Assembly (NCBI GenBank): GCA_027625915.1
Contig: JANTQA010000009.1
Coordinates: 1-64,000 of the forward strand
Direction of reading: 5' to 3'
Length of the DNA: 64,000 nucleotides
From: Anaeramoeba flamelloides
Lineage: Eukaryota > Metamonada > Anaeramoebidae
Both the position numbers and the translations under genes were made by a program. Positions within the stretch are counted from its first letter, which is position 1; each line of letters begins with the position of its first letter. Positions 6,734-54,405 of the stretch are shown piece after piece. The notes beneath the pieces are model-generated. The model searched no databases. It was not told where the DNA came from and was given only the letters and a program-made list of their open reading frames with translations.

Positions 6734-6765
<32 letters not shown>

Positions 6766-21656: not shown

Positions 21657-25129
<3,473 letters not shown>

Positions 25130-26002: not shown

Positions 26003-26737
26003 AACTAAAATTCAAATTTTGGGGCCCACCAAAAAGTCAATATTGAAAAAAAAAACTCAATGGATAACACTAGTGAAAAAAAATTGAGAAAACTCGTTCT
26101 ATTTCTTACTGTAGATTGGTATTTTTAAATTAAACTCAAGTAAACTCAAAAATAAAAAAAAATAAAAAAATAAAAAAAAAATCGCTGTGCCCTAATTTTG
26201 AACTGACCATTACAAATTTTTTATTTTTTTTCTTTTTTTAAAAAAACCATTTATTGATTTTCCCTCCCGTTTTAGAACCAGATTTATTCTCGTCTCCATT
26301 GAGAGAATCAAATTATCCATAATTTCCCAACTAATCCCTTCCCAAACGTTTATTAATTCTTCAATGAATTCCTCTTCAGTTTTTGGTCTCACATCTTTCA
26401 AACGCTTATCCATTACACTCCATAAATTTTCTATGGGATTTAAATCTGGCGAGTTTGGAGGCCAAGGGTTTAAAACTAGACACCGTTGATTAAAATATTC
26501 CATGGTCTTTTTGGAGGTATGTGGCCGTGCTCCATCTTGTTGAAAAATCCATTTGAGTCTACCGTATTTTTTATTTGCCTGTTTGATAACTTTGGATTTT
26601 TTTAGAATGTCGTTAATATACGACTCTGTGTTGACTGAACCTTTAATAATAATTAAATCTGTCTGGAGCTTATAGCTAACCCCCCCCCCCAAATTAAAAG
26701 TTTTTTACCAAATTTTTGCTTTTCAACAAAAACCGAA

Positions 26738-28400: not shown

Positions 28401-29251
28401 TAGTGTAAATCTCGTTGAAGAAAAATGTGTGAGGTTTACTAACGCTCCAAAACCTTTATAAATTAGACTAAACATTACATTTCAATTCATAACTTAGTCT
28501 TTAAATTAAAAACTGAAACAACAAGAAAGATAGATCTTGTGAAAATTGTTTCCTATTACAATCTGAAAAAACTCACTGGAATGGATTTTTTAAATATTTT
28601 AATCAATATTTTGACTCTTAGTAAAGTGAAATTGTATGTTTTTAAGGATATCACAAGTTTAAATTGAAAAATTAAAAAAAAATAAGGAGAGGTTTTCATT
28701 CTAAAATAACGAAACATAGTATTCAAATATTGTCTAAATAATATATTTTTCAATTTATAAAAACACGATTTCCAACTATTTAGGAAAAAACTCCCAATTT
28801 CATTTTTTCATGATTTTTTTGAAATTATTTTTAGTTTTTTTTTCAATTTTTTTTTTTTAATTTTCATTTCAATAAAAAAATAAAATATAAATATTTTTTT
28901 TTAATTTCGACATATTCAAAGTAAAACAAAATTTTGTAAAGTTTTCAATTTTAGTAATTATTTTTACTAATAAAAACAAATAATTTGTTTTTTTTTTGAA
29001 AGTTTTTATTTTTTTTTTTTGAAAAAAATTTAAAAAATTTTGAGAGATGAATAACTTGAAAAATGTTTTATTACTTTTTTTAAAAACTTTTTTGAAATTA
29101 TCAAATTTTGAATCAAATCAAAAATCTTTTTTGAAATTTTTTTGGTTGTTGAATCGAAAAAATAAATTTTATTTTCAAGAAAACTCTGAAAAGTTTAACT
29201 TGGGTATTTGTATTCATTTGGTTAGTCAATGAATGTGTTCCAATATTGGAA
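28401..29251. other. AT-rich, no gene seen
   Basis: Poly-T/poly-A rich. A 20-bp palindrome GTGTTCCAATATTGGAACAC sits at 29236-29255, exactly at the left edge of the 1.8-kb repeat. Confidence 0.5.
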
Positions 29252-31032
29252 CACAAGTGTAAATTGAAAATCATAAAAATGAATTTTTTTTTTCATTTTT
29301 CTTGTTTAATTTTTTCAAAAAAATCCATCAGGCAAACTCAAAATTCTCTCCGAACTCGGGTTTTTAAGATATTACCCAAAATCATTTTTTATTGTAAAAA
29401 AAAAAAATTGTGGCCAAATAGGGAAATTTCTATTTTTGGGCAAAAATATTTTTTTCATTTTTTGACCCTTTAAAAAATGAAAAATAAAACATTTTTTGTT
29501 TAATCCCAAGTAATCTTGTCCATATCTTAAAATGGATTTTTAAGAATTTTTTTTTCAAAAAAAAATTTTTTTAAATTTTTTATATAGGAAACATCAGTAA
29601 AAATTAAAAATACTAAAACTTCCACTTATTTTTCAGAAAAAATTTTTTGATTTTCCCAAGTGATCCAGAAATTGGTAGTTAATTAAGATGTGTTCTTTCA
29701 AAAAAAAAAATAAAAATAAAAATTGAACATAAACTCGCATACTAATTACAGTTACCTTAATTGATTTTTTTTGATATATAAAAAGATAAAAAAATAAAAA
29801 AATATATAAAAATTTCGAATTGATCTGGATTCGATCCTGTGCTATCAAAATTTTCTTTATTTGTTAGATCTGGTGCTCTACCAACTGAGACATTAGACTA
29901 TTTGTTGTAAAATGAAAATATTTTTTTTTTCAATTTTTTTAAATTAAAATTTTTTACTAGTTAATTATTACTAAAAAAAATTTAAAATTATCAAAGTTTT
30001 TTTTTAATTTTTTTTTCAAAAAAAAATTTTTTTTACAAAATATACCTTTTCGTTAAACTTTAAATTTTCAATAAAAATTTTACAATTTTTTTTTTTTTTT
30101 TTTTTAGTAATATTTCCTATTAAATTTTTTTAAGTAATTTCTATATAAAAATATATATATTAGTAAAAAAAAAAATTTTTTTTGAAGAAATTGTGTGAAT
30201 TTAATATATTATTTTAGACGTTATTTGAGACTAATAAAAAAGATTTTTTTGAATAAAGAGTTACTTACTTCCATATTATAAAAAAAATTATTTTCAAAAT
30301 TATTTTCCAAAATTAAAAAACAATTGAAAATTGAAGAAAAAATCTAAAATTTCAAAAAACACTAAAATAAAATTTAAAAAAATATTAACCCCAGAAAAAA
30401 AATAATTTTTAAACTTGTTTTTATTAAATAAATATTTTATTTTTTTCAAAAAAATTTGTCATCATTTTTTCAATTTGAGTCAATTTTTATATACAATTAA
30501 ATTCAAAGTTTATAAAATCCATAGAATCGAATAATGATATTCAAGTAAAAAAAAAAAAAAAAAATTTTTTTAATCAAATAAAACTATGTTTTAAAATTTT
30601 CATTTGTTTATATCTTAGAGTTTTGATAATTTTATTTTAAAAATTTTTACATAAAAAAAATTTTTTTTATATATACAGCAGCAAAAAAAAAATTAAATTT
30701 TTTGTTTTTTTATTTTTTGACTGAGCTCGGAAATAACTCCAAAATCATATATTTTACTAAATTTTAGTCTAGTGAGATCAATCTAAAAAATTGTAAAATT
30801 AAATATTTTTTAATAAATTTGCCCTAATAAAAAAAATAAAAAATTCAAAATTAAAAAATTATTTTTTTTTTTTTGAAAAAATGAAATTGGACAATAACTT
30901 CTATAATTTAGGAGATATGATATTAAAAATTTCAAAAATCGATTTTTTAGAGATATTTATGGGGGTCTGGTAAAATAATTTACCCAATGCCTCCATAATT
31001 TAAAATTTTTAATTTTTAAATTTAAACTTGTG
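29252..31032 (+). mobile_element. 1.8-kb repeat with tRNA-like insert, copy 1
   Basis: Starts CACAAGTGTAAATT and ends AAATTTAAACTTGTG. Nearly the whole length recurs inverted at 41126-42915. No open frame of weight, so non-autonomous. In copy 2 the ends are flanked by TA on both sides, which suggests a Tc1/mariner-type mover. Many AT-only runs differ in length between copies. Confidence 0.85.
29819..29903 (-). other. tRNA-like sequence in repeat copy 1
   Basis: On the minus strand it reads TCTCAGTTGGTAGAGC (A-box/D-arm) and GGATCGAATCC (B-box/T-loop) about 55 nt apart, the normal tRNA spacing. D stem is nearly complete, but the anticodon and T stems do not pair well. It looks like a decayed tRNA or a Pol III promoter kept inside the element. 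Confidence 0.6.
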
Positions 31033-35012: not shown

Positions 35013-38000
35013 ATGAAAACACGTTCACAGGTTTGTTGTTTAAAGAGTTGTTTAAATTGCGAATCACATGATTTTGAACGTTTAAGCAAACGATTAGAGA
35101 CACTAATCAAAAAACATAAAAAAAATAATTATGAGTATCTAAATCATTTTTTGAAGAAAAAAGTTACAAGTAAAGGTTTATCATGTTTTCGAATTCATAA
35201 AGAATGTCAAAAAAAATAAGAACACTTAAATGCTGTTTTAACCAAGCTATAATTCTGGGTAAAAAACGCCAATGTTTAACAAATTTTTATAAATGTGATT
35301 TGATTAGTAGTAACTTATATAAAAAATGTAAAGAAATGAACATTGAACTCAGAACTAATTTAATTTGTAAAAAGCATTTCACTCTTTTGAAAAATCTTTA
35401 TAGAAAAGAATTGTATTCAAATTTCAAGCAAGAAGAACTCCAAACTGAAAAAAATCTTGAGAAAACTCAGAATAATACTTTTTTTTTGACTACAACTCAA
35501 GAAGATGAATCATCTTTTAATGTTGGTGGTATTGAACTTGATTCTCTTGATAATACTCCCACAAATGAGCCAGATATTTTTAATATATCATCAGATTCCG
35601 ATTCTGAAACTGAACCAAAGTCTTTTCAACTTGTTCCAGAAAGCATTAAAACTCAAAATGAATTTAATTTTTATGCAAGAAATCGAATAAATCATTCTAA
35701 AAAAAGTTACTGGAGAGAATTGACGAAACAACTCGATTTGGAAATAGTTTCAGATGATGATGATGATGATGATTCAGATTATACTGAAGATTTATCTGAC
35801 TTAAATATATTGAAAAAAATTCCTGAGAACGAATATATTCAAAGCAATACAGTTACAAATAAAAGATTATCTAAAAAATCATTAAAGAATATCAATGTTC
35901 CAAATAACTTAGAAGAATTACAATTTCAATTAAATTATTTGAAAGAAAATATCACCGATTTTAATTTTGATTTATCACAGTTTAATGTTTTTTGTCCAAC
36001 CGAAAAAAAATGTTCAAATGACCCAAAAATAATAAGTTTTTTAAATCAGCCGAGATTAAAATATAAAGAATTTTTACAAAACCAAACTCTTCAAAAAGAT
36101 TTGTTTAAATGGAAAATTCAATCTAATACACCTGGTATTCATTTTAAAAGATTGTTAAAAATTCTTCAACACTATCATAATGAAGATAATTTATTATGTA
36201 CACCTCGTGTAATAAGAAAACACATGCTTCAAGATATTGGTTATGATAATATTTATGAGTATTATAATGTTAAAACTAATAATACAGAACCAACTAAAGA
36301 GAGAGTAAATACAATTAAATTGCATTGGGATTCGAAGCCTGATGACAATAATAAACCTCTTGAGCATGAAATTGAGGTACCATATATTACTATAACAACT
36401 TGGTTAGATTTGATTTTACAGTCTAAATTGAAAGATTATTTATTAACAAAAGAAATTTTGGATTCAAATAGTGACGTAAATGGACCAAATTTCCAACCAA
36501 TGGAGTTTTATAATACAAAAAAGTTTAAAAAATATAATATTAATCCTATAGACAATCAATATGATTATATGTTTTTTATTAGTCTTTTTATTGATTCACA
36601 GGCTCATAAAAGTTCAATGAGAGATAATATCAAGGGTATATATATGTTCATTGAAAATTTTAATGTAGGAGCAAGACTAAAAAATCACTCAATTTTCTTA
36701 TTAATGAATCTACCTAAAGAAGTTCCAATATACGACTTGAAAACACGTTTACCCTTTATTAGTGAATTACTACAATTGGAAAAAACAAATACATTATTTG
36801 GTTTTAAAGTTTTTATTAAATTGTGTTCAATTATCGGGGATACCTTAGAGCAACAACCTGCTGCGGGTAAAACAAGTCATTCTTCAGTTCAAGTTTGTAG
36901 GCATTGTAGTATTTCAAAATATGAAAAAAGTTTTAATCTTGGGAGGAATATTATTATTCAAAAAAATGATTCTAATATTAAAACCTCTCTTAAAGAAAAT
37001 CTTGATTGTATTAGAAATTCAAACAGAAAAAGAAAAGAAAATCTAAATATTCTAAACAATGATAAAACAGAAGAATTTCAATCTATCCAAATAAATAAAA
37101 AAAAGAGAGTAAATAAAATTGATTTAAATTTTGAACTTATTCAAAAAAGAATTGAAATAGAATTTGAGTTATCAGATGATACTGATAATATTGAAAATGG
37201 AGAATATATACCATTAAACACTAATATAGTATTTGAAAATCCATTAAATAATATATCTCAAGATAATATAAAGAACAATACAGAAGTTTTAAATAGTTTA
37301 TATTTGACAGATATAGATTTTTCAACAAAAAAAGAGATAATGTGTTTCTAAAAGAACTTCAGAAATTTTTAGTTTTACTTGATATACAAAAAAATCAAGA
37401 AGATTACCGAATATTAAAAAAGAAAATATCAAAAAAACATGGAGTTTTATTACAAAGAGGTAATCCTTGGCTTCATTTATTCAATTTAAAAAGTTATAGT
37501 TTTTATCATTTCACGATTTGTTGGGTTCATTTATTACTTGAAGGGTTATTTAAAGATGGACTTATAGTTTTAAAAAAATTATTGGGGAAAAAATATATTG
37601 AGATGTTATCTGAAAATATCAAAAGTTTGATAAAATTTTATTCTTGGATTAATATTCCATTGAAACCCTTTGAAGTCAAATTAAATGCTATGGAAGTTCT
37701 GGACTTTTCAATGATATTAAGCATAGCAATTCAAATAACTGAATATGAATATTTTAAAAATAAAATGAAAGAGTTTGAGAAGGAAAAGTCTAGACATCAA
37801 ATAAAAAATAACCATTTTCAAGAAGAGAAAATGAATTTTAAGAAATTATTTGAAAATGAAAGAGATGAAATAATTTTTAATTTATTTAAAAAAGAAAAAT
37901 ATGAGAAATATTTAAATAATTTTTCTTTTTGGAAATTAAAATATTATGAAAAAATCCCAAATGGGAATAAATTAAATGTAATTTTAGAATGGATTAATGA

Positions 38001-38868
38001 ATTTAATAATTTAATTTCAAATCTCTTTTTACCTTCAAGGAATGAAATCGATGAAATCAATCTCGAAAAATTTTGTATTAGTTTTCGAATAATTCATTTA
38101 AAATTATGTAATTATAAAGATTTACCTTGCTCAAGTGTTAATTTTATCCAAAATAAATCTAATAAAAGAAAAAAATCTAATTTTTACCATCTAAAAAGAA
38201 AAACAAATATTCATTATCTGAGACACTTACCAAAATGTATCGGAAAAAATGGTTCAATGTTTACTTTTTATTTAGCCCTTGAACGTTTCCATCAGTAATT
38301 TAAATTAAAACGCCGTAATTTAACTTTAAAGGGTACAAAATTATTAATAAATTTAATTGAGAATGAAATATTAAGAAAGATTTATGATATTAGTTTATTA
38401 GAACGAGAAAATATCATAAAAAATTCAAAATATGAATACAAAATACTTCCAGATTTATTAAACTACTTAAAAAATCTTCTTAAATTAAAGGAAAGTGAAT
38501 TAAACGATTTAAAAATTCTATTTTATTTTATAGATAATAAACATATTTTTAAAAAAAATTATTTTATTGAAACTTTTGATAATGAATATTTTTTAATCCA
38601 CAAAATAATTAAAAAAATGAAAAAAATACAGGTTCAAGATAAAGAAATTAAACAAGATGAAATATATATTCTTGCATATAAAATCATAAAAAATGATTCA
38701 ATTTACACATTAAAATATCCATTATGTCTCATTAAAGGTAAAATAAAAAAAATATACATCTAATACCACTTTCAAATTATTTTAAAGAAAATTTAAATGA
38801 TTATATTTTAAATGAACATTTTATTTCACATCTTCCCAGATTTTTAGATTATGAGTTGGATAAATAAA
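35013..38868 (+). pseudogene. TNP2/Plavaka-like DNA transposase, frameshifted
   Basis: Three main open segments: 35013-35219 and the start of 35204-37351 form a Cys-rich N terminus (CCLKSCLNC; CCFNQ...CDLI...ICKKH), probably a zinc-binding DNA-reading module. The long segment has an acidic region and then a catalytic-type stretch (FFISLFIDSQ, FLLMNLPKEVP, IIGDTLEQQPAAG, VQVCRHCS) typical of TNP2/Plavaka (CMC-like) transposases. 37342-38298 continues with the helical C-terminal half, and coding continues past a TAA at 38296 to about 38868 (SHLPRFLDYELDK). Frame changes lie at A-runs near 35208 and 37328. Terminal inverted repeats were not found. Superfamily call is moderate. Confidence 0.6.
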
Positions 38869-39506: not shown

Positions 39507-41125
39507 GTTAATCAAATAATTCCAAAAAATGGAATTTTTAGAATTGAAAATAATTTTGAAATTAGTTTGAGATCTGTATTAATTCCAAAAAGAATTGGTT
39601 TAAAATAAGCATTTAAAGAATTTTATTCGTTGTATTGTTACAAAAGAAAAAATGAGAATTTTGATCCAATTCCAAAAATTTATTGAGAATTATTAATTTA
39701 AAATTCAAGTGTTTCCTAGTCGTTATTTTTTTTTAGTAGAATTTTTGAATTCTTTTTTGATGGAAGGGGGGTTTCTCAATGAATTACTAAGTTTTGTGAC
39801 ATATTAAATTAATTCTATTTTTTTTTTATTTTTTTTTATTTATATTTACTTTTTAATATGAAGAAAACCAAGCGTGTAATAAAATTAATTGAAAAAAAAG
39901 AAGAAGAAAAGAAAAATCGATTTCAGAAAGATTCAAGAAAACATAGAAAATACCATATTCAACAATCTAATAATGAAGAGGTCAGAGAAAACAATAAAGA
40001 AAAAGAAAAGGAAAAGGAAAAGGAAAAGGAAAAGGTGAATGTGAAGGGTCAAAAGAAAAACAAAAAAAGTATACATAAAGTCCTGGTTTCTTTAAAAACC
40101 GTGGAGAATTTATTGAGGGGTAGTGAATTTGAATATTTTTCTTTGGTAAGAGATAAGAATTATGTTGCCTTGTTTGAGAAAGGTTATTTTCAAGTAGTTT
40201 GCACAACATGTAGGAAACAGATGAATGGGAAAAAATCAACACTTTTAACCCATTTAAAATCAAAAACACATAAAAAAAGTTTAATTTATAATGAAAAAGA
40301 ATTCAGTGGTAGTCTCAATGAAAATTTAGTTTCAATTTTTTTTCAAAATGGAATAAATTTACATAAAGGTGCTAAGTTATTAAATTCCAGAAATTTCATA
40401 AATTTAATCAAATTTAATACTATCTTTCCATCTGAACCAACTTTACGAAGAAGTATTCCAACGATTTTTGAAAAAGAAAAAGAAAAGATTATTTCAAAAT
40501 TAAAAGAAAGAAAATTTTCAATATTATTTGATGAAACTACAATATCCAATTCAAGGAGTATTATTGGATTGATTTGTTCAAATTATGAAGCAAGTATTTG
40601 TATAAGAGTGACAAAGATACAGAAATGTGATGCAATAAGTATTTATAACTTTATTTTGTAAAATCTGAAGCAATATTCAATTAACTTTAATCAAATACTT
40701 TCTCTAACTTCTGATGGGGCAGCTGTTTGTTTGGCCGTTGGTAAATACTTTCAAGCAAAAAACATTCAACATGTTATTTGTGGTGCACACACATTACATT
40801 TAATAACTGGATTATTAATTAAAACATTTAATTTAGTTAATATTTTGGTAATTGAAGTTAATACATTTTTTTCACTTGGGAAACAAACATCACGTAAAAA
40901 GAGATGGGTTGATGAATTTTAAAGATTAATTAGTAAACCTTCAATAACTAGGTGGGGAAATCGGTTTAAATGTTGTTTTGATATATTAGAAAATCGAGAT
41001 AATTTAATTAATTTTGTTAAAAGGGAAAAAGAATCAGAAAATAAAAGAAAATTACTCGAACTACTTAGAAATGTTGAATGTATCGAACATCTAAAGATTG
41101 TTAATTATTTTGGTGAATTGATGTA

Positions 41126-42915
41126 CACAAGTTTAAATTTAAAAATTAAAAATTTTAAATTATGGAGGCTTTGGGTAAATTATTTTACCAGACCCCCATA
41201 AATATCTCTAAAAAAATCGATTTTTGAAATTTTTAATATCATATCTCCTAAATTATAGAAGTTATTGTCCAATTTCATTTTTTCAAAAAAAAAAAAATAA
41301 TTTTTTAATTTTGAATTTTTTATTTTTTTTATTAGGGCAAATTTATTAAAAAATATTTAATTTTACAATTTTTTAGATTGATCTCACTAGACTAAAATTT
41401 AGTAAAATATATGATTTTGGAGTAAATTCCGAGCTCGGTCAAAAAATAAAAAAACAAAAAATTTAAATTTTTTTTTTGCTTCTGTATATATAAAATAATT
41501 TTTTTTTATGACAAAATTTTTAAAATAAAATTTTCAAAACTCTAAGATATAAACAAATGAAAATTTTAAAACATAGTTTTATTTGATTAAAAAAAATTTT
41601 TTTTTATTTTTATTTTACTTGAATATCATTATTCGATTCTATGGATTTTATAAACTTTGAATTTAATTGTATATAAAAATTGACTCAAATTGAAAAAATG
41701 ATGACAAATTTTTTTGAAAAAAATAAAATATTTATTTAATAAAAACAAGTTTAAAAATTATTTTTTTTCTGGGGTTAATATTTTTTTAAATTTTATTTTA
41801 GTGTTTTTTGAAATTTTAGATTTTTTCTTCAATTTTCAATTGTTTTTTTAATTTTGGAAAATAATTTTGAAAATAATTTTTTTTATAATATGGAAGTAAG
41901 TAACTCTTTATTCAAAAAAATCGTTTTTATTAGTCTCAAATAACGTCTAAAATAATATATTAAATTCACACAATTTCTTCAAAAAAAATTTTTTTTTTTT
42001 ACTAATATATATATTTTTATATAGAAATTACTTAAAAAAATTTAATAGGAAATATTACTAAAAAAAAAAAAAAAAAAAATTGTAAAATTTTTATTGAAAA
42101 TTTAAAGTTTAGAGAAAAGGTATATTTTGTAAAAAAAATTTTTTTTGAAAAAAAAATTAAAAAAAAACTTTGATAATTTTAAATTTTTTTTAGTAATAAT
42201 TAACTAGTAAAAAATTTTAATTTAAAAAAATTGAAAAAAAAAATATATTCATTTTACAACAAATAGTCTAATGTCTCAGTTGGTAGAGCACCAGATCTAA
42301 CAATTAAAGAAAATTTTGATAGCACAGGATCGAATCCAGATCAATTCGAAATTTTTATATATTTTTTTATTTTTTTCTCTTTTTATATATCAAAAAAAAA
42401 ATCAATTAAGGTAACTGTAATTAGTATGCGAGTTTATATTCAATTTTTATTTTTATTTTTTTTTTTGAAAGAACACATCTTAATTAACTACCAATTTCTG
42501 GATCACTTCGGAAAATCAAAAAAATTTTTCTGAAAAATGAGTTGAACTTTTAGTATTTTTAATTTTTACTGATGTTTCCTATATAAAAAAATTAAAAAAA
42601 TTTTTTTTTTGAAAAAAAAATTCTTAAAAATCCATTTTAAGATATGGACAAGATTACTTGGGATTAAACAATAAATGTTTTATAATTCATTTTTTAAAGG
42701 GTCAAAAAATGAAAAAAATATTTTTGCCCAAAAATAGAAATTTCCCTATTTGGCAACAATTTTTTTTTTTTACAACCAAAAATGATTTTGGGTAATATCT
42801 TAAAAACCCGAGTTCGGAGAGAATTTTGAGTTTGCCTGATGGATTTTTTTGAAAAAATTAAACAAGAAAAATGAAAAAAAAAATTCATTTTTATGATTTT
42901 CAATTTACACTTGTG
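41126..42915 (-). mobile_element. 1.8-kb repeat with tRNA-like insert, copy 2 (inverted)
   Basis: Reverse-complement copy of 29252-31032 inserted in the hAT coding region, flanked by TA at 41124-41125 and 42916-42917. Ends CACAAGTTTAAATT/AATTTACACTTGTG. Confidence 0.9.
42262..42346 (+). other. tRNA-like sequence in repeat copy 2
   Basis: TCTCAGTTGGTAGAGC (42274 on) and GGATCGAATCC (42327-42337) keep Pol III box A/B spacing. It is nearly unchanged from copy 1 while AT-rich surroundings have drifted. A possible anticodon loop CTAACAA has no matching 3' stem, so a working tRNA is doubtful. Confidence 0.6.
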
Positions 42916-43821
42916 TATAATTTAATTATTGGAATTCAAAAAAAAAATATATCAAATGAAACAGTAACAGACTGGAAGAATTTAGGAGAGTTTTTATTTA
43001 AATTGCCAAATAATTCAATAAATTTTGTTTTAAACTCAATAAAAAATAAAACAAATTATATTTCAAAAAGTTCGCCGAAATTAATAAGAATTTTTATTAC
43101 AGATGTTAAAAATAAATACTATCCTCGATACTTAATAACAGATAAAATTATGAATAATTTTTTTCTTTTCTCTCCCTTTTTTATTCGACAATTAATTAAT
43201 AAACCAACAGATGGTATCATTTCAATTATCAATAATCAAATGATACCACCAAAACACAAATTTCAATGGAATTTATTTAAAAAATTTATTTTCAATAATG
43301 AACTAGAAAAAAATATTTCAGCAATTGATTTTTGGAAAAAAAATATTACTCGTTTTCACACACTATCAACCTATATTCTTGAAAAATTAAGTGTACATCC
43401 AACTTCCTGCGAAGTTGAAAGATTATTTTCCTTAGTAAAATTGGTTGATACAAATCAAAGAAATCTATTAAAAATAGAATCCTTAGAAGCAGAAGCAATT
43501 ATTAAATATAATAATTGTTAATTTATTTTATTCTTTTTTATTAATATTTTTATTTTTTTATATATTCACTTTTTTTTTATTATTTTTTTAGAACAATCAC
43601 TTTTTTCAATTTACTTTTTTAAGTTTTAATGGTTTTAGAAGTTTTTTTTTGTTTTAATGATTTAAAAAGTTTTTTTTTTGGAGTATAAAATTTAAGATGT
43701 AAAAAAGAATTTAAAAATTCTAATTTATAGTTGTAAAAGGAATTCAAAAATTCCATAGAATTTAATTAGAATTATTTTTGATGATTTTTCAAAATGGAAT
43801 TAAATGACGAACTCTGTATAT

Positions 43822-44110
43822 CCCTTATAAGCCCAAATCGACTACTCTCAATTTTTGATTTATTGTCATAAACAAACATTATTTTTTGTACAGAAAAAAT
43901 TTTGATATGCGTAACCACGGCACGGTCACTTTCTGACAATATAGCACGATAACCACCCTTATTTTGACATTTTTTCACTATATCATAAATTTTTTTAAAT
44001 AATTCAATTTTGATAAAATTTTTAATTTTTTTTAATTTTTTAATTTTTTGATCGCGATCAAATAAAAAGATTACTTAAATGACTAAATTCTTGTGATCTT
44101 ATTATTAATC
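43822..44110. other. AT-rich, no gene seen
   Basis: Right flank of the hAT element; nothing recognised. Confidence 0.4.
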
Positions 44111-44119
44111 TTATTATTA

Positions 44120-44330
44120 TGATTCACGGGGGTGATAAAATGTCAAAATTCGAACTATTGAAATATTTTCAAAATATGGGCTAAATTGTTTGTGAGAGTG
44201 GGGGCGCAAGCGCCCCCCACCCACACTATCATTATAGCACATATTTCAAAAATATTTTAATAATTACAATTTCGTCCCCACCCACCCCCTACTACCCACC
44301 CGTAGACGAATTTTTAATCATTTTTATTTC
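44120..44330. mobile_element. Small fold-back element with GC-rich core
   Basis: Centre GGGGGCGCAAGCGCCCCC is a perfect GC hairpin. On both sides AAATATTTT/ GAAATAT words repeat inverted, then CCCACCC blocks. A MITE-like hairpin without coding capacity. Confidence 0.6.
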
Positions 44331-44799
44331 GAATTTTATAATTTTTTTATCTTTGTATTTGATCGTAGAACGATACTTAGAATGTAAAAATAGAATAAAT
44401 AATTTTTTAAAATTCTTTATTATCCAATAATGTATATTTTTAATATTCTTTAATCGGAAACAAAAATAATATCAAAACTTTAATTAATTGTTTGAAGTAA
44501 AATAAGTGTTTCATGAAAAAATTCAGTTTCAAAAGAACTGATTTAAATCTTCAAATATTTTTAAATACAAAGATATTTATTTTTAGAAAATAGTGAAGTT
44601 TTTTAAAAAAATTGTGACGTTTTTACGAAAAATTAATTTAAAAAGAGTTAAATTTAAAAAAAAAATCATTTTTTTTTAATTCACTTTACCTTAAATATGT
44701 CTTCAAATAGAAATCAAAAGGGGGGGATAATATAAAAACAATTTTTAAGAAGATTTAAAAAAGATTTATAATATCGAAAGGGAGAAAAGCTCATATGTA

Positions 44800-45062
44800 G
44801 TTATAATGTTGATGAAGAAGATACTGATGAGATGGAATATTTATTTTATGAATAAAAAAATCAACATCTGATGAAAATGATAAAATACATAAATTAGATG
44901 AATTAGATCTCATTGAACATAATAATAAAAATTTAAGTCGAAATTGCCATTTATGTTATTTAACAACAAAAATTGAATCCAAAACACATTATAACTGCTA
45001 AAAATATCAAATAAATTTACATAAAAAATGTTTTCAAAGATTTCATCATATCAGATTCGCTA
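44800..45062 (+). pseudogene. piggyBac transposase C-terminal remnant
   Basis: One frame reads SRNCHLCYLTTKIESKTHYNC, a stop, then KYQINLHKKCFQRFHH. This is the C-terminal Cys/His zinc finger of piggyBac transposases (CxxC ... YxCxxC ... CFxxxH), with one Cys changed. An acidic stretch precedes it, in shifted frames. The catalytic domain is gone. Confidence 0.6.
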
Positions 45063-45693
45063 AAATCTACAAAAATATCATTTTTTAATTTTATATTACT
45101 GATTATTTTATTTTCCAATTAATTAAATTTTTAATCCTTTTATTGGATACTTATTAAAATTATTTAAATAAATATTTCCTTTATATTTATTTTTTTTACC
45201 TTTTTAAGTAACTTTAAATATATATGAGATACATATAGTAAATATATAAATAAAATAAAAACCAAATTTTAGTGAAATACTAGGTTAACATTATTGAAAT
45301 AAAAATAAACTCTAATAACGAATAATTTTTTTGTAGGCTTTTTTTTTTTTTTAATTTTAAAGAAAAATGTTTCTCTTGAATTATTTTATTTTTTTATGAA
45401 CTCTTGATACATTTTTTATATGTTATTTAGAGAGAAAAATGAAATTTTTCTCAATATTTTTAATTAAATTTTTTTAAAAAAATTTATAAAAATTTTCTTA
45501 CTTGTGTTGTGTATTAGTTCTTGTCACTGGTTATTTTTAAAAAGAATTATTGAAATGGGTTTAAAATTGCTAATTAAAGAAGCATCACTATTATTTATTT
45601 TAGAGCCCTTGAGAATTTCAAAATGATTTTGTAATTTTAAGAATAAATCCCATTCAAAGTAATTTAAATTATATGTAATTACTAAGTTTAAAT
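45063..45693. other. AT-rich upstream region of the deaminase gene
   Basis: No gene. It presumably holds the promoter of the following gene, but no motif can be singled out. Confidence 0.4.
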
Positions 45694-47006
45694 ATGTTTC
45701 TAGGTATGGTGGTCTTTTTTAGTTTTATCACATTTTTTGAAAATCATTTTTTTTCATCTGACTTATCTTTAAACATGGAAATTGTTTTTCATTTTGAAAC
45801 ACCACCAAAATTTGCACTTTTGGTCAGCTATTTTTTTCCAAAATTGAAAGTGAAACCTTTTGCTGATACTGTTCAATTATTAGAACCAACTTTATGTGAC
45901 ACAAAAACAAAAAAAATGATTGTGTTTGGAAATTATACAATTGCCAAACACTTGGCAAGACTTGGAAAAAAGGCACGTGATCTATTTGGAGATTATCTAA
46001 CCCAAATTGATCAATGGTTAGAAGTTACTTCATCAACTGAACCTATCCAATCTTATTTTTCACTTTTAAATAATTATCTCCAATTAAGAACCTATTTTAT
46101 TGGAAATACAGTCACCCTTGCTGATCTTGCTATTTTTGTTAACTGTTTAAAAGGTGAGAAATTTTTTTTTTCTTTTTGGTTTTTCTTTTTTTCTTTTTTT
46201 TTTCTTTTTTTAATTTTTTTTTTTGTTAAAAAATTTTTTCTTTATTGCCTTTCGTTTTAACCGTAACCTATTTAAATAGTAAATAAACAACTTCAAAATT
46301 CTAAATTTGTTCATTTGAAAAGATGGTTTAATCATATGTCAATGATCCCACAATGTAAAAGACTTATCGATCTCAAACCTTTCAGTTGTAAAAAGCAAAG
46401 ACAACGTATTAGAAATGATAACAATCAGACTTTTCACCTTTCTTCAAATTATTTTCCAAAATTAATAAAACTGGTTAATTGTTTTTGTAATGCTAAAATT
46501 TATTTTGAAACATCTCAAAATTCTGAACAGCCTTTATTAGAAATAAAGAAACAAAAAAAAACTTTAGAAACTATAAATAGTTTTAAAGGTGAAGATAAGA
46601 TCATTAAATGGCTTTGTAATGAATACAAGTATCAACATCTTTTAATTGAAAACAAAGAAAATCAAAAATTTAACGCTATCAAAAAAATTTTTCAAAAACT
46701 CAAAAAAAATTGTAGAGAGTATGAATTATCCAAAACAAATGAAATTAGTAGGGGGGGGTAGTGAAAGAGATAAACAACAAAAAGGAGATCAAAACAAAAA
46801 TAAAGAAAACAGAACTAATCAAGAAAAGAATCCAAATGAAAGTTTAAGTATCAAGGATCAAAAAAATAATGAAATTCAAGTTAGTGTAAATACAATTATA
46901 GATTCTCTAGAAAAATTACAAAAATATTTAAATATTTTTAACAACTTTTTTGGTGGTACCCATATGAACCAAATTGATCTATTTGTTTTTGTTCACATAA
47001 AAGAAT
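45694..47006 (+). CDS. Tandem GST-like domains of GluRS type (5' part of the deaminase locus)
   Basis: First domain: MEIVFHFETPPKF ... IVFGNYTIAKHLARLGKKA then GDYLTQIDQWLEV, LNNYLQLRTYFIGNTVTLA and, after an intron, HLKRWFNHM. This order is that of the N-terminal GST-like domain of eukaryotic glutamyl-tRNA synthetase and its partners, which docks proteins in synthetase complexes. No synthetase catalytic domain follows. Instead a second, more diverged GST-like unit runs from about 46440 (NYFPKLIKLVNCFC) to LEKLQKYLNIFNNFFGGTH and IDLFVFVHI, with an intron at the same place. The likely start is the ATG at 45775 (MEIVF), with 45694 as an upstream option. The whole locus to 50398 reads as one transcription unit with about three frame interruptions, all in low-complexity tracts. 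Confidence 0.7.
46154..46279 (+). other. Inferred phase-1 intron in GST domain 1
   Basis: Donor AAAG|GTGAG after NCLK, acceptor AAATAG|. Splicing joins NCLK to NKQLQNSKF and then HLKRWFNHM, which fits the GluRS GST fold. 126 nt, T-rich. Confidence 0.8.
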
Positions 47007-47096
47007 GTAAATTTCTTTTTTTCTTTCTTTTTTTGTATTGTTACATTAATTCTAATAATTATTAATTTCTTTTTATCTTCATGATTTAAAAAATAG
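47007..47096 (+). other. Inferred phase-1 intron in GST domain 2
   Basis: Donor GAAT|GTAAAT, acceptor AAATAG|. Position in the domain and phase match the intron in domain 1, so the two domains arose by duplication after the intron was present. 90 nt. Confidence 0.75.
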
Positions 47097-49105
47097 TTAA
47101 ACATTTGATAAGAGATAATACAAATTTGTCAAATTTAGAAATTTGGTTAAAGGACATGTTTCTACTCCCACAAATTCAAAATTATGAAAATTATCCTCTT
47201 TTTAAGAATCCTAATCAAAATAAAAAATTTGGTACATTAAATGAAAAAATAAAAGATAAAAAAAAACTCAAAAAATATTTAAAAAATATTTTTATTAATT
47301 TGTATACCTATAGTGTTGAAAATTATCAAGAACCAACCGAAACTAGTATAACACAATTTTTTTTCAATAAGTTATCAAAATTGTTGGTAGGTAAAGAAAG
47401 ATGTGTTGCTATAACTCTGAAAAATGGTACTGTTTATTTCTCTTCAAATTCCCAAACAAAAAAAACAAATAATTTTGTGGGCGTTATTGAACATATTCTA
47501 AAAGAAACGAAAACAAATACATTTGAAATTCAAACTCACATTACAATTCCAAATGAAAAGGGAGAAGAAATAAATAAAATTAAAATCACACACATTAATG
47601 CAAAAAAAGAAAATAATAAAATTCTAATTGAGAAAAGTTCTCGAAATATTGATATTTTAATAACTCAAGAAGATCACAATTTTACGGAACTATTAGATTT
47701 AGAAATAACTTTAGAATTAGATGCAGAATATGTTCTTCAACAAACTGATATTATAATTAAAAGAAACAAAATTTGTTCTCATGATTTAATGAGAAAATTA
47801 TCCAATTTAATACTTCATTTGTTTGATTGTTTGAAGATAGTTGTGGAATGTAAAAAAAACAATATTTGCCTATCAAAAATGGAAAGAAAAAATATTTGCC
47901 TATTAAATATGAAAAGAAAAAATTTTTTAGATCCATTAATAATGCAAATTTATTCAAGAAGTGACTTCAATAAATTAAATGCAGAAAAATATATACTTAA
48001 TAATGATTTAGAGAAATTGACTGATGAGATTAATAAGATTTTTGAAGATTTTCTTGTAAAAGATAAAATTGAATTGGGAGATTATAAATTTAATGAAGAA
48101 CATAAAAAAATAATAATAAGCTTTTTTACTTCTCTTAGAGAAATTGAAAAAATAATCAAAGAAAACATATTTCAAGAAGATTTTTTTTTTGTTCTGAATT
48201 TTATTCTATCTGCTACATATTTGTTGCACCGTTGTGAGAAAATAAGCCAGGAGATTAAAGAAATCAGGAATTACAAGATTAAAAAATTAGAAGATATTAT
48301 TAATAAAAAAGATAAAAATAATGATTCTGAAGACCAAGACATTCAAAAAAAAGCAACTATTAAAGAAACCAAAATCAAAATTGTTTGGAAACCATATAAA
48401 CTTACATTTTTTGGAAACCAAAATGGTATTCATGCAGAAATGGTTATTTTTAATCAACTAGGAAAATTGGATTTTATTTCAATTTCTAAACAATGTTGTC
48501 CACAATGTTATTACTTTCTGAATAAAAATAGTATTAAAAATACAGGATGTCATGGAAAAATTATTGGTAAATGGAAAATTGATCAAAAAATAAGTGAAAA
48601 AATTTTAGACAAAAAGACATTAGATGAAATTACAAAAATTTATAATGATTTTACTTCAAAAACTGAAGAAAAAGATAAAGAAGAAGAAAAACAAGTAGAA
48701 AAAGAAAAACAGGAAGAAAAAGAAAAAGAAGAAGAAGAAGAAGAAAAAGAAGAAAAAGAAAAACAAGAAAAACTAGAAGAAAAAGAAAAACAAGAAATTA
48801 AAACTATCCAAAATTATAATAATACTATTCAAGATTTAATTTCAAATACTCAAGAAAACGAAGAAATAAAAATAGAAAAAGAAAAAGAAAAAAAAAAAAA
48901 TATTAAAAAAAGAAAATATAATGAAATTTCAAAAGAAACTACAAATGAAACAATTTATAAAATATTTAGATTAAATGATCCAAAAAATAAAATGAAAATT
49001 GGATCAAAAATAGAAAGAAAAAGAAAAAGAAATAGAAAAAGAAAAAAAAAAAGAAGAAATAGAAAAAGAAGAAAAACTAGAAGAAAAAGAAAAACAAGAA
49101 ATTAA
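47097..49105 (+). CDS. OTT_1508-like nucleic-acid deaminase domain (middle of the fusion)
   Basis: Open for over 650 codons. It first completes GST domain 2 (LEIWLKDMFLLPQ), then a 400-residue region of mixed helix/strand (VGKERCVAITLKNGTVYF) and a deaminase core at about 48380-48590: NGIHAEMVIFNQL, ISISKQCCPQCYYFL, then GCHGKIIGKW. His-Ala-Glu plus CPxC are the zinc and proton-shuttle residues of the cytidine-deaminase fold; the ISK-xx-C-xx-C and HGK-x-W surroundings resemble the OTT_1508/fungal family found in Orientia, Wolbachia and fungi. All metal ligands are present, so activity is plausible. Substrate is unknown; relatives are thought to act on nucleic acids. An EK-rich linker follows, containing a ~250-bp internal duplication (IKTIQNYNNTI occurs twice). 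Confidence 0.75.
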
Positions 49106-49300
49106 AACTATCCAAAATTATAATAATACTATTCTAGATTTAATTTCAAATACTAAAGAAAACGAAGAAATACAAATAAAAAATAACCAATCAAAAGAAA
49201 AAGTAAAAAAAAAAAGAAAAAGAAAAAGAAAAAGAAAAAGAAAAAGAAAAAGAAAAAGACCCAAGAAGAAAAAGAAAAAGAAAAAAAAGAAAATATTTTA
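48670..49300 (+). repeat. EK-coding linker with internal duplication
   Basis: AAAACTATCCAAAATTATAA and its downstream flank occur at about 48800 and 49103, each between GAAAAA/GAAGAA arrays. The copies differ at few sites, so the duplication is recent. Confidence 0.9.
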
Positions 49301-49315
49301 GGTATACTAACAAAT

Positions 49316-50398
49316 TTGTCGGGTTTTAATCAAAAAAAATATATAAATTATTATCAGTTGAGATACAAATTTCAAAATGAAACAGAAAATAATGTTTCTA
49401 ATCAAAGAGTTTTAATTGGTTTAAAACAGTTTAATTTGTTAGTAGAACAATTATCTAAGATAACAAAATTGAGTGTAAATATTTTAAATACTCAAAAAAA
49501 GGATACTAACAAAATTTTGAAACAAGAGAAAAAAATAAAAGATAGTGAATTACCTTTAGAAGAATTAAACAATTTATTTAGAAACAAAGAACTAAATGAT
49601 TTTGAAAATTTTTCAAAATCTTTTAAAGGTTATTACAATAAAAAAATAGAATTGAATGAACATCAAGATGCTTACAACCTTTTAAACTTATTGTTTTATA
49701 GAATTACTAAATCAAACAATTTTGAATATTGTACTTTATTAAAACAATTTTTTGGTTATACTTTCATTCAGCATTATAATTGCAAAGAATGTAGCCATCT
49801 TTTTGAAAGAAAAGAAGAATTTTTTACTTTATCTTTAAATATTAAAAAAAACAAATCTTTAGAGGAATTGTTAAATTTATTTTTTCAACAAAAAATATTA
49901 AATGAAGAAATACAAATTTCATGTGAAGGATGTGTTAAAAAAACTCTTGATTCAAAATATTATGTTCAAAATTTACCTAAAAATTTAATTATTCATTTAA
50001 AAATATTTGAATATGATTTCATAACCAAAAGAAAAAAGCTTATACAATTAGGGAATGTTTTGAACCCTCCTTTAGATATTTGTATTCAAAATGTTATAAA
50101 GAAAACCGAAAAGGAAATAGGAAAAGAACAAAAAGTAGAAAATGGAAATGGAACTGAATTAGGAAACGAAATTAATGAAATGAGTAAAAATGATTCTCAT
50201 GATTACAAATTATTCGGAATAATATACCATAATGGAAAAACTCAAGAAAGTGATTATTGTTCAGAATTTTGGTACGGTGGAAAATTCATACCCTCTGAGC
50301 ATAATACTCCAATAAACATGAACAAGAACAATAATCAATCAAAATCTGAAAACAATAATGATAAATATCCATATATTTTATTTTACACAAGTAAATAA
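49316..50398 (+). CDS. Pseudo-deubiquitinase (USP fold without catalytic Cys/His)
   Basis: USP-family landmarks in order: a box-I-like stretch KKYINYYQLRYKF where Lys sits at the catalytic Cys; HQDAYNLLNLLF (QQDA box); two CxxC zinc pairs, NCKECSHLF and SCEGCVKK; LPKNLIIHLKIFEYD; then DYKLFGIIYHNG, SDYCSEFWYGGKF where Asp replaces the His of GHY, and YPYILFYTSK at the C terminus. Active USPs remove ubiquitin; this one lacks both catalytic side chains but keeps zinc and core motifs, so ubiquitin binding or scaffolding is more likely. Open frame extends upstream (NILGILTNLSGFN), so the stated start is only where the clear USP part begins. It follows the deaminase and linker in the same direction, and I infer one fused protein. 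Confidence 0.75.
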   Translation: MSGFNQKKYINYYQLRYKFQNETENNVSNQRVLIGLKQFNLLVEQLSKITKLSVNILNTQKKDTNKILKQEKKIKDSELPLEELNNLFRNKELNDFENFSKSFKGYYNKKIELNEHQDAYNLLNLLFYRITKSNNFEYCTLLKQFFGYTFIQHYNCKECSHLFERKEEFFTLSLNIKKNKSLEELLNLFFQQKILNEEIQISCEGCVKKTLDSKYYVQNLPKNLIIHLKIFEYDFITKRKKLIQLGNVLNPPLDICIQNVIKKTEKEIGKEQKVENGNGTELGNEINEMSKNDSHDYKLFGIIYHNGKTQESDYCSEFWYGGKFIPSEHNTPINMNKNNNQSKSENNNDKYPYILFYTSK

Positions 50399-50400
50399 AT

Positions 50401-50484
50401 TTAATAATTTGAACTTTTATTTTATTAATATTTGGTTGTTTTTTCAGTAGAAAATTGTAGAAACTTTAAAGGTATCAAAAAAAC

Positions 50485-50515
<31 letters not shown>

Positions 50516-51138
50516 CAGTATTTAATCTTCGATAGCAATAAAAATAATTTAAATACTTTTTGATTGTTATGCCCCCATTCTTTTTTTGATTATTAACATT
50601 TGAGATTTTTCCAAAATAAAACTTTTAATGATTGGATTTTTTTAAAAATAATTGAAGAATTCAAAGTTTTTGATCTATTATTTTTTTGAAAAAATTAGAT
50701 TGAAATTGAAAAGTACTTCATAAGAATTGAATTTTTTAATATTTTTTAATTTTATTTTCCGTTTTACAATAAATTTTTCTCTGAAAATCAGTAGATCATA
50801 TTTGTATAATTGATTGTCAACAAATAAAAATGCAAACTTAAATTTTTTTAACAGATTGATGAAGATTTTTGGGAATAATTTATTTGAAAAAAAAATATTG
50901 TTTGCATATCTTAAATAAATATAGATCTTTAATAAGAGACATTACAATTACTCATATCAAGTGAATCAATCAAAGTCCTAAATTAGGATTTTGTTTTTTT
51001 ACTTTTTTTTAAGATATTTTTTTAAAAAAATTAATTCTTCTCTTTTTCAAAATATAACATTTATAAGGTATCATATCAAAATGTTTAAAAATAGTATGAC
51101 TTCTCCACATTTAATTAATTTTTATTTTTAAAATGTTA
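50401..51138. other. AT-rich, no gene seen
   Basis: 3' flank of the fusion gene with a poly-A run at 50488-50508. No structure noted. Confidence 0.5.
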
Positions 51139-51139
51139 A

Positions 51140-51642
51140 CATCAAAATTTTTATTTTTAATTCCATTTTTAACTACAAATAATACACACCTTAAATTGAT
51201 ATATCTCTAAAAATATAGTTTTTTTTTATGAAATTCAATTTTTAGATTTAACCCAATTTACTAAATCTTAGTATCACAAATCGGAAGACGTTTAATTTAC
51301 CTCTAATTAAAATTATGTTATTAATTTTAGAAAAAAATAAAAAATAACTTCGTGAATGATATGGGTAACTTTTATTTGTAAAAATAATTATTTCACTTTT
51401 TTTTTTTTTTTTTTCAAACAAAAGTTATTCAATTCCAAGTTCATTTTTACTATCTTTCTTGAATTAATAGGAAAAAAATAATGATTTAAAAAATTATATA
51501 TACTCAATTTGTATTACTAAGATTTAGTAAATTGGGTTAAATCTAAAAATCAAATTTCATAAAAAAAAACAAATTTTTAGAGATATATCAATTTGAGGTG
51601 TGTATTATTTATATTTAAAAATAGAATTAAAATTAAATTTTT
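51140..51642. mobile_element. Fold-back element, ~0.5 kb
   Basis: Arms at about 51140-51290 and 51505-51642 are reverse complements: AATACACACCTTAAATTGAT against ATCAATTTGAGGTGTGTATT, and GATTTAACCCAATTTACTAA against its complement. Centre is AT-rich with no gene. Confidence 0.85.
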
Positions 51643-52385
51643 GTGATTCGTTTCCTTAGAAAAAATTAAAAAATTTTTTTAAAAAAATCCAATTAAAAAG
51701 AAAAATAAAAATTGCAAAATTTCAACAAAAATCAAAATTTATCTTTATTTTTAAATATTAAACAATTGAAATTGAAAAATGATTATATTCAATCATTTTT
51801 GAATTTTAAAATAAGAATAAAATTTTCAAAAAAAAACAAAAATCGACTATTTTTAATTCATTTTTAATAAAAAAAAATGAGAAAAAAATTGGCACAAACA
51901 TTATAGTATAGGGAAGGGTTTGGAATATTTTAAAAAAAAATTTCATGTGAAATATTTGATTGACAAAAATCGCCTAATGTTGGACGATAAGTTGGAACAT
52001 ATATTAGGTTATTTTAGTCACTAACCACTCTAGAGAAGTATAATATGTTGTTTAAAACTTTGTTAGGAGCACTAGAAAAAATGATCAGTCCTAATATGCT
52101 ATTTTGGTACAAAATCTTAGAAAATTAAACAAAATATTTTCAAAAAGAAAAAATTAATTAATGTTTATTTGGAAAAAAACAAAAAAACTTCACAATTACC
52201 TTCATTGAGTTTGTTTCTAGATTTGAAAAGATCTCTTGATACTGTCAATTCTAAAATAAATTGAACAACATTTTCATTTGGCTTTCCAAAAAAATCAAAG
52301 AATTAAAATTATCTGAAAGCCCCTATTCTAGAAGTGGTAACAGAATATAACCCTAATTAGTAAATTAAAAACTATTAATATTTCC
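51643..52385. other. AT-rich, no gene seen
   Basis: Nothing recognised. Confidence 0.5.
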
Positions 52386-52389
52386 AAAT

Positions 52390-53360
52390 AGATTTTAAAA
52401 AATTTTTGGAATACTAAATGAAAATTTTTTCCAATTTACTTTGCAACAGATAGTAACCATTGTGAAAAAAAATTGGGTCAAGCTGAAATTTTTTTTCCAT
52501 TTTTTAAATTGTAAATATGAACAAAATGGTTTTTTGAAAGGATCATTTTCTGAAAAAGTATTACTCTTATGAAAAAAAATATTAACCATTTCTAATTAGA
52601 AAATATGGAGTTGGTTTCGAAACACAAATTTCAAAAACTTTAGTATTTCTCTGGAGTGCTAAAATGACAAAACTTTGATTTTAATTGGAAACTTTACTAA
52701 AAATGTGATTTTATTTTAATTCAATTATCTCAAAAGTTCTTGTTTTTAATTGATAATATGACCAAAAATGAATTTTCTTTTTAATTAAGATTCTTGTAAT
52801 GCCCTTTAATTAGGTCTTGAGATATTCTAAAATTTCTGATTTTTGTTATTTTGAGGTTTTTATTGTAAAACCTTACTAGAAAATCAACAATTTATCAAAA
52901 AATACCATTTTTGGAAAATCTGGTTTTTATAGTTTAATAAATTGTTTCTTTATAAAACCATTTTATCAATTCAAATAAATTCTATAGTATAAACATTAAA
53001 CAGAAGTAAGGGATTTAATTATATTCTCAATCTTTAAATTCTTATTTTTAGTAAAGTTTACAATTAAAATTGAACTTTTCTTGTTTTAACACTCAAGAGA
53101 AATACTAAAGTTTTGAAATTTATGTTTCGAAACCAACATCAGATCACCTAAAAGGGTATTGTTAATACTTTCTCTCAAAAGGTTAACACTTTTTCAGAAA
53201 ATGATCCTTTCAAAAAACCATTTTGTTCCAATTTACAATTTAAAAAATGAAAAAAAATTTCAGCCTGAACAATTTTTTTTAATGACACAATTTTTTTTCA
53301 CAATGGTTATTTCACAATTAAAAAAATTGCGCAATATTATTTATTGCGAAATATGTAATA
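52390..53360. mobile_element. Fold-back element, ~1 kb
   Basis: Arms of about 315 bp (52390-52705 and 53045-53360) share in inverse order AAACCATTTTGTTC, AGGATCATTTTCTGAAAAAG, TTTCGAAACC and AGTATTTCTC. About 340 bp of unique AT-rich centre. Arms have several indels, so older than the 2.2-kb element. Confidence 0.85.
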
Positions 53361-54405
53361 AATTGTGTAATTGGAGACTAATTGTGGAATAAAACCTTTA
53401 TTTTTCAATTTACCAATTATATAAGGAAAAACACTAAAATATAACTGAATTTGAATTTTTCAAGAGATCTTAAAACAAATTTATACTTTAATTTTTTTTT
53501 TTTTTTTAGAAAAATGTTTTTTTAACACCAATAAATGATTACAAATTAGGAATTTAAATAAAGCCAAATATTAAATTGTTTAAATCTCAAAAATAGTAAA
53601 AATTCTGTCACAGTACTTTACTGTTAGAAATAATTGTTATTTTTTGTAATAACATCTTCTTTTCAAAAAACAACAAAAACAAAATTTGAAATTTGAAAAC
53701 ATTTGCTAATTTCGGTAAAGAAGAGAAACTAGTTTGAAAATGTTAAACCAATTAAATTCTTTACAAATTGAAATGTATTCTTTTCTCCATTTTTTAAGTT
53801 GGATTGTTGTTGATCGAACATTTAAATCATTTGTAAACAATGTTTACGAATTATTTGTTTTTTTTTTTTTTTTTTGAAAACAATAAATAGGTTGTTACTT
53901 CAAAAATGTAATTTTCACAACAGAATATATCTATTTAAATCTTTGTTTTCTTTGTTTGCTTCCAATTGTTGTTTATTTTGGAGATCCATGAAATAAATAA
54001 TTTTTTTTGTATTATAGAGAGATTTCTTTGATTTTCTTTTATGTTAGCCATCTCTAAAGTGGAATAATAAACCTCACAAATTGATTCTCTTTCGATTTCT
54101 AAGGGTTATTTTTTGTATAAAATAAATTACGAAATAAGTGACTTATTGTGTAATAAATTAAATTTCTTTATAATTTTAATTACGAATATTGTGACTTATT
54201 TAGCAATTTGTGTCTAGTTTCGCAATTTGAAACAAATTTCGTAATTTGGTTTATATTAAGCAAAGGGTCTAATCATTATCTCGAATTTCACTAATTCATT
54301 ATTTTTGATCCTTTTTTCAAAAAAAACTTTTATCCGGTACAGTTGATATATTGTTGAAAAATGATCGACAATAAAACACTTAATCTGATAATTTGAAAAT
54401 GTTAT
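53361..54405. other. AT-rich, no gene seen
   Basis: No gene. It may be a diverged extension of the duplication seen at 54.4 kb. Confidence 0.4.

Follow-up and report, generated by a model that had tools for sequence, protein, structure and literature searches.

A copied glutamyl-tRNA synthetase docking domain joined to an OTT_1508-type deaminase in the metamonad Anaeramoeba flamelloides

Anaeramoeba flamelloides is a free-living anaerobic amoeba belonging to the metamonads. The DNA analysed here (the window) comprises positions 1-64000 of a 90,792-base contig (C10) of its genome (254 Mb, 76 contigs), and the locus in question lies with all its parts on the plus strand at 45775-50398. It opens with a GST domain (GST1) that was copied from the organism's own glutamyl-tRNA synthetase (GluRS) gene and is kept under purifying selection; an apparently older and degenerate GST copy (GST2) and a deaminase of the OTT_1508 type follow in the same gene. 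A stretch with the fold of a ubiquitin-specific protease (USP) comes next and probably belongs to the same protein. The deaminase family is known, its architecture here new. We consider it about an even chance that this chimeric nuclear gene produces an enzyme which occupies the docking site of GluRS and deaminates RNA at that place.

The architecture is hidden in the databases under a misnomer. The public protein P0001 (934 residues), named 'eukaryotic translation elongation factor 1 epsilon-1 [Anaeramoeba flamelloides]', matches the locus exactly on four exons, with splice ends read from the sequence (45775-46153, 46280-46405, 46716-47006 and 47097-49105). It lies on a contig of equal length (90,792 bases) and most likely represents the gene model published for the same assembly; it unites GST and deaminase and ends at 49105, ahead of the USP. 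The join of GST and deaminase is therefore already public, and what is new is the origin of GST1 in the organism's own GluRS gene, intron included, together with the selection acting on it. An earlier note on this DNA had read three segments as GST, deaminase and USP on a single strand, and each of them matches a named Pfam family where it was placed (Arc1p_N_like and GST_C, OTT_1508_deam, and UCH, respectively).

GST domains of GluRS descent

The earlier note had called the first domain a GluRS-type GST, and the genome itself supplies a close relative. A six-frame search with exon 1 finds two places, the locus itself and C51:1708816-1709190, the latter with 87% protein identity. The gene at this second place carries tRNA-synt_1c (E 3.3e-84) and an anticodon-binding domain (E 8.3e-22), which makes it of glutamyl-tRNA synthetase type; the tRNA-synt_1c family spans the enzymes for both glutamate and glutamine, and the GluRS name rests on the kinship of the GST with EPRS and on the general gene pattern. 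A Pfam scan finds no class I synthetase catalytic domain in P0001, whereas the GluRS gene has one. At the DNA level the two genes are 84.6% identical across 655 aligned positions, intron included. Their alignment begins 35 bases 5' of the ATG, convincing identity setting in only directly ahead of this codon, and terminates past the GST domain; within the shared intron, 76 of 120 aligned positions are identical.

Profile searches agree with this descent. Over 45679-46260, Pfam reports Arc1p_N_like at E 5.6e-6 (27 bits, cut-off 27) and GST_C at E 2e-4, above its cut-off; the Arc1p_N_like match rises to E 1.5e-8 in P0001, in which exons 1 and 2 are joined. Among solved structures, the P0001 GST comes closest to that of human EPRS (E 1.7e-10), with eEF1 epsilon-1/AIMP3 at 1.6e-5. 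We rejected the eEF1 epsilon-1/AIMP3 identity of the public name because GST1 is a GluRS domain with 87% identity to the organism's own gene; a length of 934 residues with a deaminase also contradicts this name, AIMP3 being a small single-GST protein.

In order to read the divergence between GST1 and GluRS, the expectation for a decaying copy has to be considered. If the chimeric copy were drifting freely, about half of the divergence would be neutral and a pairwise omega of about 0.5 or more would be expected. Across 160 codons, the synonymous divergence (dS) is 0.378 and the nonsynonymous divergence (dN) 0.059, giving an omega of 0.16 (bootstrap 0.08-0.27, 1000 replicates). Since the upper bound of 0.27 stays below that expectation, it is well supported that purifying selection maintains GST1, a domain duplicated from the docking part of GluRS in its own genome. 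The source gene of a docking domain can thus be named in the same genome and its selection measured.

Residues 133-156 are unchanged between GST1 and the GluRS domain; this segment includes a KRWF stretch which aligns to identical letters at positions 148-151 of the EPRS chain and which we take to be helix alpha7 of the EPRS GST. In human EPRS, Interface 2 is formed by alpha7 and the alpha4-alpha5 loop, and Interface 1 by alpha2 and alpha3 (PMC6760448). Ten of the 21 changes in GST1 fall within one 30-residue window (65-91), and because 643 of 20000 random draws were clustered just as strongly, these changes only hint at a loss of Interface 1. Above the Arc1p_N_like cut-off, the genome holds 11 matches, namely this locus, the GluRS gene and nine others, so that GST-bearing candidate partners exist.

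That more than one GST unit is present, as the earlier note proposed, is borne out by GST2. Residues 211-310 of P0001 align to GST1 with a score of 76, and none of 2000 shuffles was as good (28.8 +/- 5.3, maximum 52); a slightly longer piece also scores 76 against the GluRS GST (shuffles 29.1 +/- 4.8, maximum 58, 0 of 2000). GST1 and GST2 each contain a phase-1 intron at an equivalent site. From the match to GST1 and GluRS and the same-phase intron at the matching place, GST2 reads as an older, degenerate copy of the same kind of domain, one that the Pfam scan of P0001 did not detect.

The N-terminal half of GST2 probably lies in 46406-46715, a region which the public model splices out. This region is open for 103 codons, a length reached by 1 of 1000 random sequences, with GC contents at the three codon positions (GC1/GC2/GC3) of 0.30/0.20/0.15 and a coding score of 0.16 in frame, the other two frames scoring -0.42 and -0.81; by the same test the short exon 2, at 0.02, is hardly coding. 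The two T-rich introns differ from this region, which is open and looks coding, and we therefore doubt the public 310-base intron at face value, though the match of its content to the N-terminal half of GST1 is weak (68 of 2000 shuffles equally good).

The deaminase and the USP stretch

Over 47090-49105, Pfam identifies OTT_1508_deam (PF14441) at E 7.2e-9 (35.9 bits, cut-off 27), with 62 of 64 profile positions reached and the match opening at the H of HAE. The HxE and CxxC zinc-site motifs, as defined for this family (PMC12754623), are in register with the profile, and their contribution was measured by masking. With H and E of HAE masked, the score falls by 6.9 bits and the start of the match moves; for both Cys of CPQC the loss is 18.9 bits and for C, H and W of GCHGK..W it is 13.1 bits, against 1.8 bits for a neighbouring Cys. 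The motifs of an OTT_1508-type deaminase that the earlier note had picked out are thus intact. A further profile, dCMP_cyt_deam_1, matches weakly at 15.4 bits, below its 25-bit cut-off. Profile and sequence searches place the deaminase exon at a single site in the genome.

A single frame, open over 671 codons, carries both the end of GST2 and the deaminase, so no gene boundary can lie between them without splicing. Together with the join in P0001, this makes the fusion of GST and deaminase, which the earlier note had suggested, well supported. The longest open runs span 527 codons (47098-48680), 126 codons (exon 1) and 367 codons (the USP stretch); these exceed the maxima of 128, 125 and 99 in 1000 first-order random sequences per region, and the open frames are therefore not due to chance. 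The stretch of roughly 410 residues that separates GST2 from the deaminase has no Pfam match.

The USP stretch matches UCH (PF00443) over 49187-50398 (E 7.1e-10, 39.3 bits, cut-off 23.9), and its best solved relative is USP9X (E 5.5e-13). The earlier note had regarded it as a pseudo-enzyme, and an alignment with nine paralogs from the same genome agrees: the locus shows a gap in place of the Cys box, reads SDY at the position of the GHY common to all nine, and lacks the third box. The paralogs retain the catalytic His in 9 of 9 cases and the Cys in 8 of 9, one (L011) having Asp in its place. Having lost its catalytic residues, the locus USP should be dead as a deubiquitinase, and any role with ubiquitin would consequently be limited to binding; two CxxC pairs are retained.

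The USP family is very large in this genome. The stretch has 63 matches including itself (L003-L011 are examples), of which 36 lie in open frames of at least 2000 residues, and the locus USP stands outside any such giant frame. A search among 4100 candidate proteins, which left aside much longer proteins such as the giant paralogs, returned no USP relative at E <= 0.001. NCBIfam and PADLOC gave only weak matches to unrelated families on this stretch (E 0.0034 and 0.023).

A proposed docked RNA editor and its alternatives

We propose the following course of events. The N-terminal GST domain of GluRS would have been duplicated ahead of an older, degenerate GST and an OTT_1508-type deaminase, and GST1 would retain most of the docking domain. 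The GST-like N-domains of yeast GluRS and MetRS attach to Arc1p, and it is on these contacts that their complex depends (PMC4394549). Because the yeast domain binds in this way and GST1 is maintained, the protein may be able to take the seat of GluRS at a synthetase complex of the Arc1p or AIMP type, or it may pair with another GST there; the strongest argument for docking is the descent of GST1 from the host GluRS domain together with its maintenance. The deaminase would thereby be held beside tRNA and translation and would act on RNA, most likely converting adenosine to inosine as the fungal OTT_1508-like (OLD) editors do, and the pseudo-USP, likely on the same protein, would add a ubiquitin-binding or scaffolding tail. 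The target could be tRNA, mRNA or viral RNA, and the purpose either housekeeping or conflict. If both docking and editing hold, copying the opening exons of a synthetase gene would have been enough to direct an editor to translation, which raises the question of where inosine occurs among the RNAs close to the synthetase complex. A bolder version, which we offer tentatively and hold to be rather doubtful, is that the captured domain seats the editor on the synthetase complex with the dead USP as sensor or tether, forming a translation-linked switch for tRNA or mRNA editing in Metamonada.

Comparison with known systems shows which parts are shared. The fungal OLD deaminases belong to the same family, PF14441, and carry the same HxE and CxxC zinc-site motifs, from which RNA adenosine deamination may be extended to the locus; they are paired with a zinc-finger factor, whereas the deaminase described here is fused to a GluRS-derived GST and probably to a pseudo-USP. 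GluRS continues after its GST with the synthetase catalytic domain, whereas the locus continues with a second GST and the deaminase. The USP fold is common to the locus and to proteases of the USP9X type, by profile and by best solved relative. MCP3, a YbaK-like member of the synthetase complex of Trypanosoma brucei, provides a precedent for a tRNA-related editing domain at such a complex, but is a separate protein, is not a deaminase and has no captured GluRS domain (PMC4394549). A gene annotated as OTT_1508-like has been named in Leishmania mexicana (PMC12315365). Among the papers listed in literature searches on OTT_1508, OLD-ZAO and Anaeramoeba, no description of OTT-type editing in Metamonada was seen, and none of this protein when a search on synthetase-deaminase chimeras, which gave unrelated papers, was included.

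Several points weigh against a docked editor. Selection was computed for GST1 only, and the single-sequence structure model of the deaminase (mean predicted local distance difference test, pLDDT, 44.5) is too poor to confirm the fold. A word-based search across 5.8 billion proteins scored 8000 of a larger number of candidates and, P0001 apart, showed no deaminase relative at E <= 0.01; among 561 candidates there was none at E <= 10, and 53 pattern-matching stretches in genome_contigs and 7 in viral_contigs gave 0 confirmed relatives; these searches detect only relatives with short exact words in common. P0001 was rejected as independent support for the frame, given its apparent origin in the same assembly. 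A run of eight G near 46752 breaks the frame that passes through 46406-46715, P0001 bypassing this break only via the predicted intron that we doubt, and the deaminase frame stops at 49103, with two frame changes in purine repeats at 48.9-49.3 kb. The claim of the earlier note that only linkers or introns separate the parts thus holds, subject to reservations over these frame changes. Published A. flamelloides assemblies, to which this one may or may not belong, were built from nanopore reads with later correction (PMC11550330); run-length errors are therefore possible at the eight-G run, and its frame break may be real or an assembly error.

The eight-G break also bears on an alternative in which the maintained GST1 acts as a decoy, competing with GluRS and tuning the synthetase complex while the deaminase is inactive or structural. 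If the break is taken as assembled and the public intron is not spliced out, a protein of GST1 and half of GST2 would result, its translation stopping at 46761, and the selection figure is that of GST1. We judge this improbable, since the deaminase exon is open over its 671 codons and HAE, CPxC and GCHGK..W are all kept. A non-functional chimera, that is, a decaying chance product of repeat-mediated duplication, would account for the repeats on both flanks, the frame breaks and the lack of relatives in the searches made, but is very improbable in view of the long open frames and of an omega of 0.16, with its upper bound of 0.27, where about 0.5 or more would be expected with one copy neutral.

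A docked editor could also serve conflict. In this variant at the level of purpose, the protein would be a weapon responding to viruses or symbionts, comparable to fungal OLD-ZAO: its GST would direct the deaminase onto tRNA or mRNA of the host, and translation would be stopped or reprogrammed on infection. OTT_1508-like deaminases of Neurospora carry out adenosine-to-inosine editing at a limited number of mRNA sites as part of an antiviral programme (PMC12754623), and the short, repeat-rich contig as well as the absence of relatives in the searches made would fit such a role. Against it, no ZAO-like zinc-finger gene, in the fungal module an adjacent transcription-factor gene whose stop can be edited, was recognised beside the locus: no open frame of at least 120 residues occurs between 50398 and 62860 (smaller or intron-split genes being possible), and on the 5' side only a dispersed repeat and a hAT fragment were recognised. 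We regard this purpose as rather unlikely.

The extent of the gene is a separate matter. That GST1, GST2 and the deaminase form one gene and the USP is another gene or a dead fragment, so that the locus holds two or more genes or a broken one, is possible though doubtful. The end of the public model at 49105, the stop at 49103, the linker that changes frame twice and the absent third catalytic box at the end of the USP all speak for it. However, the first in-frame ATG of the USP stretch does not occur before 50180, which leaves a separate gene without an evident start. The stretch is also open for its 367 codons, resembles exon 4 in codon periodicity (GC1/GC2/GC3 0.30/0.20/0.15 against 0.31/0.20/0.15) and is 28-42% identical to the nine paralogs. 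By our reading of the sequence, the duplicated block of the linker has its copies 304 bases apart, which puts the second block in a shifted frame, after which the frame returns; frame switches within purine repeats also occur near 6.7 kb and 24.2 kb, in two gene-like regions of the window that by eye are single genes. On balance, we consider it fairly probable that the USP is fused to the GST-deaminase protein.

Layout of the locus and its surroundings

Table 1. Features of the locus and its immediate 5' flank (positions in the window)
Feature	Position	Strand	Evidence
Dispersed repeat; context, outside the protein	43817..45216	.	58 match rows for 43600-45770
Exon 1: N part of GST1, copy of GluRS N-terminal domain	45775..46153	+	P0001 1-126; 87% to GluRS gene (C51); GST_C, Arc1p_N_like
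Intron 1: T-rich, phase 1, common to GluRS gene	46154..46279	+	
Exon 2: end of GST1; DNA similarity to GluRS stops near 46384	46280..46405	+	
Intron of the public model, yet open and coding-like; probably N half of degenerate GST2	46406..46715	+	
Exon 3: spacer and C half of GST2; eight-G run near 46752 breaks the upstream frame	46716..47006	+	
Intron: T-rich, phase 1, site equivalent to intron 1	47007..47096	+	
Exon 4: end of GST2, ~410 residues matching no family, OTT_1508-like deaminase	47097..48680	+	open frame; OTT_1508_deam E 7.2e-9
Deaminase core: HAE 48428-48436, CPQC 48497-48508, then GCHGK..W	48428..48580	+	
Glu/Lys linker with purine repeats and duplicated block; deaminase-frame stop 49103; frame shifts and returns	48681..49292	+	
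Pseudo-USP: no Cys box, Asp codon GAT at 50252 in place of the paralogs' His, two CxxC pairs retained	49293..50398	+	UCH E 7.1e-10; USP9X; nine paralogs

The locus is embedded in repeats. The longest copies of the repeat on its 5' side are 87-89% identical, the 58 match rows including the locus itself, and copies often lie on short contigs or near contig ends. On the 3' side, 50399-54000 has at least 121 match rows in the genome, and a dispersed repeat of about 0.85 kb at 52455-53310 with inverted arms recurs on many large contigs at 66-76% identity. These flanking repeats could have favoured the duplication of the GluRS exons.

An Rfam scan of the whole window gave 0 matches. Two gene-like regions, 4213-7423 with a P-loop-like GSGKTW motif and 22563-25129 with a kinase-like HRDLRISN (Pkinase E 2.1e-6, under the cut-off), both start coiled-coil-like and change frame in purine repeats; by eye, we presume that they resemble Crinkler-type genes. 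Transposon remains occupy 39813-43521 (hAT C-terminal domain, E 2.3e-6, the fragment ending at 43521), 26210-26704 on the minus strand and 35201-38763, with DDE_3 at E 3.6e-13; among them is a long frame pair without a Pfam match that looks transposase-like by eye. Further along the same contig, at about 66.6-67.9 kb (L013 2642-3892, minus strand), an open frame of 417 residues resembles a piggyBac-type transposase by eye. The 55 bases at 42862-42916 recur exactly and inverted at 29251-29305, and also on another contig (C9).

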